Positions 43,908 to 47,386 of a stretch of 47,386 nt of DNA are shown piece after piece. The notes under the pieces were generated by a model. That model had not been told where the DNA came from, did not search any database, and was given only the letters and a program-made list of their open reading frames with translations. This DNA is from Lachnospiraceae bacterium (GTDB lineage: Bacteria > Bacillota > Clostridia > Lachnospirales > Lachnospiraceae), in assembly GCA_016285575.1 (NCBI GenBank), contig JAEEQX010000008.1, forward strand, positions 1 through 47,386. The letters are read 5' to 3'. Numbering within the stretch: the first letter of the stretch is position 1; each line of letters opens with the position of its first letter. A program made the position numbers and the translations under genes.

Positions 43908-46703
43908 TTATAATGTTACGTGGTCAAGTTTCCAAATATCATCAACGTATTCCTTGATGGTTCTATCCGAAGTGAACTTGCCTGAACAAGCAACGTTGAG
44001 CATAGCCATGCGAGCCCATTTCTTCTTGTTCATGTATGCTTCTTCTACCTTGCTCTGAGCCTCAGCATAAGACTTGAAATCCTTAAGGATGAAGTATGTA
44101 TCAGCCTTGCTTGTAGAGAGTGTATTAAGAAGTGAATTGTAGAGAGGTCTGAAGAGCTCTGTATCATCGGAATATGTTCCGTTGATGAGCTGCATAAGTA
44201 CCTTTCTGATATCAGGATCGCTGTTGAAAATAGTCATGGGATCATAACCGCCAAAGTTCTCATAACGGATAACCTGATCTGATGAAAGACCGAAGATGAA
44301 TGCATTCTCTTCGCCTACTTCTTCAACGATTTCTACGTTAGCACCATCCATAGTACCGATTGTTACAGCACCGTTTAACATGAACTTCATGTTACCTGTA
44401 CCTGAAGCTTCCTTGGATGCTGTAGAGATCTGCTCAGATACATCTGCTGCAGCGAAGATAATCTCTGCATTGGATACTCTGTAGTTCTCTATAAATACAA
44501 CCTTAATCTTACCCTTGATTGACTTATCATTGTTGATAACATCTGCTACTGAATTGATAAGCTTGATTGTAAGCTTAGCATTTCTGTATCCTGCTGCTGC
44601 CTTCGCACCGAAGATGAATGTTCTGGGATAGAACTCCATATCGGGATGTTCCTTAATCTCATTGTAGAGATACATGATGTGAAGGATGTTAAGAAGCTGT
44701 CTCTTGTACTCATGAAGTCTCTTAACCTGTACATCGAAGATTGATCTGGGATCTACATCGATACCATTATGCTCCTTGATGTATTTAGCAAGTCTGACTT
44801 TGTTCTGATACTTAATGTTCATGAACTCAGCCTGAGCCTTCTTATCATCAACATATACCTTAAGGCCTGCAATCTGTGGAAGATCTGTAATCCAATCATC
44901 ACCGATATGCTCTGTAACCCAATCTGCTAAAAGAGGGTTGCCGTGAAGAAGGAATCTTCTCTGTGTGATACCGTTGGTCTTGTTGTTGAACTTCTTAGGG
45001 AACATCTCATAGAAGTCTTTTAACTCCTGATTCTTTAAGATCTCTGTATGAAGTCTTGCAACACCGTTAACTGAATAACCTGCAACGATTGCAAGGTGAG
45101 CCATCTTAACCTGACCATCATAGATGATAGCCATCTTGGCTACCTTCTCACGGTTGCCGGGATATTTTGCTTCGATTTCTTTTATGAATCTTCTGTTGAT
45201 TTCTTCAACGATCTGATAGATTCTGGGAAGTAATCTTGAGAAGAGTTCGATGGGCCATTTTTCAAGTGCTTCTGCCATGATTGTATGGTTGGTATATGCA
45301 CATGTCTTGGTTGTAACTGCCCAAGCTTCATCCCATGTAAGATAATAATCATCCATAAGTATTCTCATAAGTTCTGCGATAGCAACTGTAGGATGTGTAT
45401 CGTTTAACTGGAATGTAACTTTCTCATATAACTTCTTGATATTCTTATGATTTCTCATATACTTGGCAACAGCTTCCTGAACTGATGCAGATATGAAGAA
45501 ATACTGCTGTTTGAGTCTTAATTCCTTGCCCGCATAGTGGTTATCGTTGGGGTATAATACTTCAACGATATTTCTTGCAAGGTTCTCCTGCTCAACAGCC
45601 TTCTGATAATCACCCTTATCAAAAGAATCAAGTCTGAAGCAGTCAATTGATTCAGCATCCCAGATACGAAGTGTATTAACGATGCCGTTACCATATCCGA
45701 TAATAGGAAGATCATAAGGAACAGCCTTAACTGCCTGATAGCCTTCCTGATAGTAGTTGTTTCTGCCGTGCTCGTCTGTTTTTACGGATACATATCCACC
45801 GAAACGAACTTCCTTAGTGTACTCACCACGACGAAGCTCAAAAGGATTGCCGTTATCAAGCCAGTTATCGGGAACTTCTACCTGGAAGCCATCACGAATC
45901 TCCTGCTTGAACATACCGTATCTGTATCTGATACCGCATCCGTATGCTGAGTAGCCGAGTGTTGCAAGTGAATCAAGGAAACATGCAGCAAGACGTCCTA
46001 AACCGCCGTTACCAAGTGCCGCATCGGGCTCCTGATCTTCGATGACATTGATGTCAACTCCGAGTTCGTCCAGAGCTTCCTTGGCATCCTTGTATGCCAT
46101 AAGGTTAATCATATTGTTACCGAGTGCTCTACCCATTAAGAACTCCATGGAGAGATAGTACACGGTCTTGGGATCTTCTTTTTCGTATGCTTTCTGAGTC
46201 TTCATCCAGTAATCAACTATCTGATCCTTGATAGCATATGATACAGCCTGGAATATCTGCTCGGGAGTAGCTTCTTTCATCTCCTTACGATACAGAGTTC
46301 TTACATTATAAAGCACACTTCTTTTGAATAATTCTTTGTCAAAAGTAATGGTGGGTTTCTTAGCCGAAGGAACTTTTCTCTTAGCAGGTGCCTTCTTTGT
46401 TGCGGCTACCTTAGTTGAAGTCTTTTTAGCTGTAGTCTTAGCTGAAGTTGTCTTCTTAGTTGTAGACTTAGCTGCTGTAGTCTTCTTGGCTGTTGTTGCT
46501 TTCTTTGCTGTAGTAGCCTTTTTAGCTGTAGTTGTTTTCTTAGCAGTAGAAGCCTTGGCTGTTGTAGTCTTCTTTGCTGTTGCAGCTTTCTTGGTTGTTG
46601 CAGCCTTAGCAGTTGTAGCCTTCTTAGCCGTTGTTGTCTTTTTAGCAGTAGTTTTTGTCGAGGTCTTTTTTGCAGTAGTACTTGTTTTCTTGGTTGCTGC
46701 CAT
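43908..46703 (-). CDS. glgP: Glycogen phosphorylase with a long Lys/Thr/Ala-rich N-terminal tail
   Basis: 931 residues. The core (about 120-931) is a full glycogen/starch phosphorylase, with TFDKELFKRSVLYNVRTLYR at its start, GNGGLGRLAACFLDSLATLG, NDTHPTVAIAELMRIL, NGITQRRFLLHGNP and EASGTGNMKFMLNG, whose Lys at about 773 holds PLP. It releases glucose 1-phosphate from glycogen. The first 118 or so residues consist of repeated A-K-K-T-T-like units with no Asp or Glu, like the tail of histone H1. Glycogen phosphorylases normally lack it. It is 16 bases after the ileS stop, probably one operon. AGGAG precedes the ATG. Confidence 0.97.
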   Translation of the reverse strand: MAATKKTSTTAKKTSTKTTAKKTTTAKKATTAKAATTKKAATAKKTTTAKASTAKKTTTAKKATTAKKATTAKKTTAAKSTTKKTTSAKTTAKKTSTKVAATKKAPAKRKVPSAKKPTITFDKELFKRSVLYNVRTLYRKEMKEATPEQIFQAVSYAIKDQIVDYWMKTQKAYEKEDPKTVYYLSMEFLMGRALGNNMINLMAYKDAKEALDELGVDINVIEDQEPDAALGNGGLGRLAACFLDSLATLGYSAYGCGIRYRYGMFKQEIRDGFQVEVPDNWLDNGNPFELRRGEYTKEVRFGGYVSVKTDEHGRNNYYQEGYQAVKAVPYDLPIIGYGNGIVNTLRIWDAESIDCFRLDSFDKGDYQKAVEQENLARNIVEVLYPNDNHYAGKELRLKQQYFFISASVQEAVAKYMRNHKNIKKLYEKVTFQLNDTHPTVAIAELMRILMDDYYLTWDEAWAVTTKTCAYTNHTIMAEALEKWPIELFSRLLPRIYQIVEEINRRFIKEIEAKYPGNREKVAKMAIIYDGQVKMAHLAIVAGYSVNGVARLHTEILKNQELKDFYEMFPKKFNNKTNGITQRRFLLHGNPLLADWVTEHIGDDWITDLPQIAGLKVYVDDKKAQAEFMNIKYQNKVRLAKYIKEHNGIDVDPRSIFDVQVKRLHEYKRQLLNILHIMYLYNEIKEHPDMEFYPRTFIFGAKAAAGYRNAKLTIKLINSVADVINNDKSIKGKIKVVFIENYRVSNAEIIFAAADVSEQISTASKEASGTGNMKFMLNGAVTIGTMDGANVEIVEEVGEENAFIFGLSSDQVIRYENFGGYDPMTIFNSDPDIRKVLMQLINGTYSDDTELFRPLYNSLLNTLSTSKADTYFILKDFKSYAEAQSKVEEAYMNKKKWARMAMLNVACSGKFTSDRTIKEYVDDIWKLDHVTL
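46380..46691 (-). repeat. Degenerate repeat encoding the Lys/Thr/Ala tail
   Basis: About 100 codons repeating a 5-6 residue A-K-K-T-T or A-K-K-A-T-T unit. The codons vary, so the DNA repeats are imperfect, with related stretches such as GTAGTCTTCTTTGCTGT on the plus strand. Confidence 0.85.
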
Positions 46704-46719
46704 TTTATTCTCCTCCGTT

Positions 46720-47386
46720 TTATACTCTCTCTACGCCGAGAGAAATTTTTTCACCATTAATGTTCCATTCTTTTGACTGGTCATTCTTGGTGTTGTAGAT
46801 AACTTCATTAGCAAGAACTTTTCCTGCGATTGCAGCTTCGTTCTTCTTGATAATCTCAGCAAGCTTATCGTTACCATCAATGTATAACTTGATGCGGTCC
46901 ATAACTTCGAATCCGGAATCCTTACGCATGGTCTGAAGTTTGGAGATAATCTCGTTAACGCTTCCTTCCTCAAGAAGTTCATCTGTGAGGTTAGTATCAA
47001 GAACTACTGTAACGTAGTTATCTGCTTCTGTTACATAGCCTTCCTTCTGAGTCATCTCGATTAAGAGATCTTCTTCAGCGAGGCTAATCTCTGTACCGTC
47101 TACATCAAACTTGATTGCGCCGTTGGACTTAAGTTCTGCCATAGCCTTGTTACCGTCAACATTGGCAAGGTATTCTTTGATACCGCCAAGTTGCTTACCG
47201 TACTTAGGTCCGACAGTCTTGAGTTGGGGCTTGAAGTTATATGTAGTAAGTTCGCTTACATCATCTGTGAATGTAACTTCCTTAACGTTTAACTCGTCTT
47301 CAATGATTTCTTTGTAGAACTCATTAAGTGTGAAGTCAGCCTTAACGAACATGTTAGCAATGGGCTGTCTGTTCTTAATAGCTGAT
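46720..47386 (-). CDS. ileS: Isoleucyl-tRNA synthetase, C-terminal part (cut off at right edge)
   Basis: 222 residues of the C-terminus; the frame runs open to the window edge. It begins SAIKNRQPIANMFVKADFTL, the end of the anticodon-binding domain with the usual R-Q-P-I block. The rest (KPQLKTVGPKYGKQLGGIK, then YVTVVLDTNLTDELLEEG and SGFEVMDRIKLYIDGND) matches the DUF5915 C-terminal extension of one class of IleS. The catalytic core lies outside the window. The stop is 16 bases before the glgP start. Confidence 0.93.
   Translation of the reverse strand, partial: SAIKNRQPIANMFVKADFTLNEFYKEIIEDELNVKEVTFTDDVSELTTYNFKPQLKTVGPKYGKQLGGIKEYLANVDGNKAMAELKSNGAIKFDVDGTEISLAEEDLLIEMTQKEGYVTEADNYVTVVLDTNLTDELLEEGSVNEIISKLQTMRKDSGFEVMDRIKLYIDGNDKLAEIIKKNEAAIAGKVLANEVIYNTKNDQSKEWNINGEKISLGVERV

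Follow-up and report, generated by a model that had tools for sequence, protein, structure and literature searches.

Lysine-rich tails on storage-granule proteins and on GlgP

Long polycationic tails are thought to tie storage granules to the nucleoid in Pseudomonas; as described in excerpts of PMC9239181, this role is accepted for PhaF on polyhydroxyalkanoate (PHA) granules and proposed for AlgP of Pseudomonas aeruginosa on polyphosphate granules, and AlgP together with its C-terminal domain is needed for the normal spacing of storage granules. A PHA synthase of Cobetia, PhaC2, carries a comparable extension for which the authors of PMC8686332 speculated about nucleoid anchoring. The Lys-repeat C-terminal domain of actinobacterial TopA is said, in an excerpt of PMC7398561, to confer processivity.

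Here, we analysed a stretch of 47,386 nucleotides from a Lachnospiraceae bacterium (contig JAEEQX010000008.1; hereafter the window), in which glycogen phosphorylase, GlgP, bears a tail of this kind at its N terminus. Tails of this type are already known from PhaF and AlgP; among the open-licence papers listed, judged by title and opening of the abstract, none describes a Lys-rich, histone-like or nucleoid tail on a glycogen enzyme. In PhaF, AAKP/KPAA repeats form the C terminus of a phasin, whereas in GlgP a Lys/Thr/Ala tail stands at the N terminus of a catabolic enzyme and the polymer is glycogen. AlgP and GlgP share a long Lys-rich repeat tail, which in the excerpted account is disordered in AlgP and is probably so in GlgP, but AlgP sits on polyphosphate granules, whereas the window's genome yielded no polyphosphate kinase. 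Cobetia PhaC2, as far as the excerpts describe it, resembles GlgP in that it acts on a storage polymer, carries a basic extension, largely unordered in PhaC2, and gives weak hits to the HC2 family, although this extension of 380 residues is C-terminal and belongs to the synthase of another polymer. The substrate of TopA is DNA, whereas that of GlgP is glycogen.

The glgP gene and its N-terminal tail

The GlgP open reading frame (43908-46703, minus strand) encodes 931 residues. The tail comprises residues 1-120 (46344..46703, minus strand) and consists of 30% Lys, 33% Thr, 24% Ala, 6% Ser, 2% Pro, 2% Val and a single Arg, with neither Asp nor Glu, a net charge of +37 and a pI of 11.9. An earlier note on this DNA had described a tail of about 118 residues made almost only of Lys, Thr, Ala and a few Ser and lacking acidic residues; the composition count agrees with this description, and the measured length exceeds the claimed one by two residues. 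The A-K-K-T-T units that it named do occur (AKKTT, four times), but TTAKK (seven times) and TAKKT (six times) are the commonest pentamers.

Behind the tail, residues 121-931 and the stop codon (43908..46343, minus strand) form a complete phosphorylase core, as had been claimed: the core matches TIGR02093 over positions 2-804 of 804 with 1168.7 bits against a cut-off of 552.9, which places it in that family, and PF00343 over positions 1-713 of 713. The EASGTGNMKF region is invariant across 25 aligned sequences, and its lysine, K773, is presumably the one that binds the PLP cofactor. In contrast to the tail, the 811-residue core has a net charge of -9. Bacterial and animal glycogen phosphorylases match this core at full length; in none of the 46 solved sequences listed (E up to 1e-100) does the alignment begin before query residue 117.

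The glgP ATG (46703-46701) is preceded at a distance of 6 nt by the Shine-Dalgarno sequence GGAGGAG (46710..46716, minus strand), which was graded strong, and lies 16 nt after the stop codon of ileS, the 3' part of which (46720..47385, minus strand) was recognized by its PF19302 match; the two genes are probably carried on one transcript. Between codon 1 and codon 130, the latter already within the core, the frame contains no ATG, GTG or TTG, and hence the start near residue 119 that the earlier note had considered fatal to its view does not exist. A start of translation inside the core, which would leave the tail unmade, is scarcely credible given the strong Shine-Dalgarno sequence, the lack of another start codon before residue 130 and the dN/dS values below 1 in the tail codons, and we regard the tail as probably translated.

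Some candidate features of this neighbourhood were set aside. Four genomes (G054, G131, G141 and G221) show open frames of roughly 1900 aa that hinted at an ileS-glgP fusion, but the two genes proved to be separate frames in all four stretches; adjacency to ileS, which a loose motif indicated at 8 of 22 loci of the genus and 40 of 80 named loci, is not claimed as a rule of the family. Antisense to the tail, a plus-strand open frame of 150 aa (46324-46776), rich in Val, Ala and Phe, mirrors the low-complexity sequence. The window's assembly also holds a second ileS-glgP pair (L002, G000:C95), whose GlgP is 65% identical over the part present and has no tail; this pair may come from a contaminating contig or be a further copy.

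The tail had been called histone-H1-like. In composition this is apt, since about 30% evenly spaced Lys with few acidic or bulky residues places it in the H1-like polycation class, which is a functional class and not a sequence family. Its scores of 21.7 bits against Pfam HC2 (PF07382; cut-off 40) and 27.6 bits against NCBIfam NF038053 (cut-off 80) are below threshold, and thus the likeness is a resemblance and not membership of either family. AlphaFold, run with a 25-row alignment, gave a model too poor as a whole (mean pLDDT 44) to be used, in which the tail has no secondary structure and a pLDDT of 22-28.

Distribution of the tail and signs of constraint

The carriers of the tail form one genus of gut and rumen Lachnospiraceae, sampled here with 26 genomes (G000-G024 and G041). 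A Lys-rich GlgP extension is present in all 22 genomes with a readable start; in G008, G010 and G011 the GlgP N terminus is unreadable, and G007 shows a tail that is cut. Absence from all close relatives, the other finding that would have spoken against the earlier note, was thus not encountered. The 21 measured extensions span 22-165 residues (median 101) with 27-32% Lys, and that of G017, which lies at a contig end and has about 79 residues, is counted among the 22 but stands outside the 21; 19 of the 22 have at least 68 residues, and those of G001, G006 and G020 have only 22. The conservation of length that had been suggested as a check is therefore not found in the genus, and lysine density is conserved instead.

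In the wider family, leaders are mostly short. Among 80 named GlgP loci of relatives, mostly from this wider family, the start was readable in 76, with leaders of at least 50 residues in five, 25-49 in three and fewer than 25 in 68; the short leaders range from 6 to 22 residues (8-22 in 61), and 45 of the 68 begin with Met, up to two further residues and Lys-Lys (MKK/MAKK-like). The five long leaders are identical to those of G005, G014, G019, G023 and G012. One of these loci (L045) belongs to the named strain Lachnospiraceae bacterium G41, the record of which is not marked as a metagenome-assembled genome, and therefore the tail is not an artefact of metagenome assembly. Another named locus (L052) has a basic leader of 37 residues unlike that of any genus genome examined. 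Of 200 genomes searched across the family, in nearly every case a single one for each genus, 193 gave a GlgP match, and among the matches listed a stop-free match starting before query residue 100 occurred only in two genomes of this genus; in 16 genomes from other families of the same order, 15 of which matched, no such match occurred. Tails of at least 50 aa outside the genus were thus absent among the matches listed and the loci read. A search with the tail alone gave a match in only 8 of the 26 genomes and missed known tails, and so it is not exhaustive.

These observations suggest that the tail grew from the short MAKK-like leader of Lachnospiraceae GlgP within a single genus, probably by repeat expansion. 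Such growth may have been nearly neutral, with repeat slippage lengthening the leader and the product being tolerated or, at most, aiding solubility; this is the main rival to the reading that we favour below, and we consider it a real possibility. The variation in length from 22 to 165 aa and the lack of tails of at least 50 aa in what was listed and read outside the genus are both in its favour. The persistence of an open tail frame in all 22 readable genomes is not.

The composition of the tails bears on the same question. In the 18 tails longer than 50 aa, Lys makes up 30.1% and its count varies far less than a binomial would (chi2/df 0.08), whereas Thr (2.92) and Ala (1.70) are over-dispersed. 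The spacing of basic residues is likewise even: in nine tails, the maximum gap is 5-6 against shuffle means of 10.5-12.9 (1000 shuffles each). For the window tail, a largest gap of 6 was reached in 4 of 1000 shuffles and its low gap variance in 29 of 1000, and for eight other tails of the genus the real largest gap was reached in 0-9 and the real variance in 0-18 of 1000 shuffles.

Substitutions show a similar bias. When A/G changes at first codon positions were counted in four pairs of close genomes, T/A changes affected 14 of 196 sites and K/E changes 0 of 109 (Fisher p 0.003), and in eight overlapping pairs the tail exchanges were A/T 43, A/K 9, K/R 5, K/T 3, K/S 1 and E/K 1. Pairs with a core identity below 90%, tails under 60 aa or a tail identity below 80% had been dropped, leaving the eight, from which the four used for the A/G-change and dN/dS tests were chosen by hand. 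The pooled dN/dS of the tail was 0.21 (0.17-0.54 by pair, with one of the four at 0.54), about seven times the value of 0.03 for the opening stretch of the core (138-160 codons). This last ratio suits near-neutral growth, but the retained density and spacing of Lys and the near absence of K/E changes argue against it. Repeat alignments are partly ambiguous and favour identity, the genomes are related and the tail is periodic in origin, and for these reasons the p-values overstate the strength of the statistics; we read them as pointing to constraint on charge and not as proof of function. From these sequence comparisons, what selection seems to retain is the density of lysine and its even spacing, while the sequence and length are free to drift.

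Thr, which accounts for 33% of the window tail, might instead be a site of regulation. In animal phosphorylase, an N-terminal segment is regulated by phosphorylation, and by analogy the modification of tail Thr by phosphorylation or of Lys by acetylation could act as a switch on GlgP. However, the Thr content ranges from 9 to 33% across the genus tails and no amino-acid change is more frequent than T/A among the eight overlapping pairs; since the Thr sites are not kept, we judge such a switch very unlikely.

Transfer of tail DNA between genes was also considered and rejected. The likeness of the window-tail DNA to seven other tails beats that of codon-shuffled versions (0 of 300 shuffles reach the real score in six tails and 9 of 300 in one), but it is no higher than after in-place shuffling of synonymous codons, where 21-269 of 300 reach the real score; the likeness is thus one of protein pattern and not of recent DNA copying.

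Tailed proteins of the genus and the possible partner of the tail

Among the glycogen enzymes examined, only the GlgP tail is constant in this genus. In its 21 full-length rows, two of them with an internal stop, the second phosphorylase (43-48% identical) shows open frames of 773-799 aa, too short to accommodate a long tail; none of the 25 readable GlgA proteins carries a tail, and neither do the four GlgC frames inspected. Of 23 readable GlgB proteins, those of G012 (L034) and G023 (L038) carry a long Lys/Thr/Ala tail much like that of the window GlgP, that of G041 has a mixed tail with many acidic residues, and at least four other genomes have short basic leaders; the GlgB of the window's genome has no tail. 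RpoD bears a long N-terminal Lys/Thr/Ala/Glu extension in 7 of 25 rows (L256, L257, L259, L260, L262, L277 and L278) and none in the window's genome, which encodes two small DUF6465-type proteins with long Lys/Ala tails (L042, G000:C140, whose DUF6465 match is below the Pfam cut-off, and L164, G000:C33); DUF6465 is not named in any paper of the open-licence library searched. C-terminal or internal Lys/Ala or Lys/Ser/Thr tails occur in L166, L190, L200 and L213, and a tail of Lys/Ala or Lys/Ser/Thr in a DUF937 protein (L215). L166, the only one of the former four that was scanned, is an SCP2 protein, in which a sterol-carrier domain is joined to an H1-like tail. The pattern KK[TAPS]3KK gave 123 matches in the 26 genomes against 101 for its reversed control, which matched in 24 of 26, and is thus little above background, although the window's own genome had 9 matches against 0; the frames were read at only part of these matches, and therefore the list of tailed proteins is not a census.

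The genus is thus prone to such tails, and their patchiness cuts both ways, fitting a shared biochemical use as well as a lineage-wide habit of growing tails. The scattered occurrence on GlgB, RpoD, SCP2 and DUF937 proteins favours near-neutral growth, against which stands the lack of a comparable tail on the second GlgP paralogue and GlgA of the same genomes.

Our preferred, though tentative, reading of the sequence comparisons is that the tail is a disordered polycation, grown by repeat expansion, that loosely and non-specifically ties GlgP to nucleic acid, whether the DNA of the nucleoid, RNA or both, by electrostatic contact. The tails of related composition on RpoD and on the small DUF6465 proteins were counted in its favour. 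Counted against it were the three of 22 genus members that keep just 22 residues, the coming and going of tails on GlgB, RpoD, SCP2 and DUF937 proteins, the acidic residues (up to 11) in the tails of relatives, the lysine exchanges, the one pair with a dN/dS of 0.54, and the tail-less GlgA (25 of 25) and four GlgC. Glycogen phosphorylases are dimeric, and a dimer with two tails (about +74) could therefore place the enzyme, and the glycogen held by it, beside the nucleoid or polysomes, as has been proposed for the granules of PhaF and AlgP. Anchoring to the nucleoid or to other nucleic acid is, by analogy with PhaF, AlgP and TopA, plausible.

The high and even positive charge and the near absence of bulky hydrophobic residues would also suit a tail that brings about complex coacervation, with either RNA or acidic proteins as its partner, in ribosome-associated or mixed condensates, and that does not bind DNA as such. 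In excerpts of PMC12706056, the condensates that glycogen itself forms in vitro under E. coli-like conditions keep proteins out in part, and glycogen in E. coli collects at the poles while the nucleoid position turns asymmetric. The sequence does not separate such a scaffold from DNA binding, and we consider the scaffold improbable. Given this behaviour of glycogen, the site of its breakdown could be affected by any link between nucleic acid and an enzyme of glycogen metabolism.

In a more specific form of the tether, GlgP would serve glycogen as PhaF serves PHA and, besides its catabolic role, would use its self-grown H1-like tail to position the polymer and distribute it when cells divide, with GlgB taking part in the sub-lineage of G012 and G023; this strikes us as rather unlikely. 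Tethering of granules to the nucleoid by tails is, in the excerpts of PMC9239181, accepted for PHA and proposed for polyphosphate, and for glycogen none was found among the open-licence papers listed. With tails that run from 22 to 165 residues against a background of short leaders, this enzyme offers a natural experiment on the birth and retention of a polycationic tail; it makes testable the idea that a housekeeping metabolic enzyme can gain an association with nucleic acid by simple repeat growth.

Polyphosphate, another target named in the earlier note, whose interpretation is partly supported overall, has lost ground. A comparable tail, that of AlgP, sits on polyphosphate granules according to the excerpted text of PMC9239181, but the search of the window's genome (91.9% complete) turned up neither PPK1 nor PPK2, which makes polyphosphate an unlikely target. 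Furthermore, the 10 genomes that lack PPK1 have longer tails (76-165 residues) than the 11 that possess it (22-102; p 0.0005 by a Mann-Whitney test not corrected for kinship), and the PPK1-less G017, with its extension of about 79 residues, stands outside this test. On this evidence, we consider polyphosphate binding by the tail highly improbable. PPK1 occurs in 11 of the 26 genus genomes and PPK2 in 8 of 26, one of the latter being a weak match with a stop; both kinases are thus patchy within one genus.
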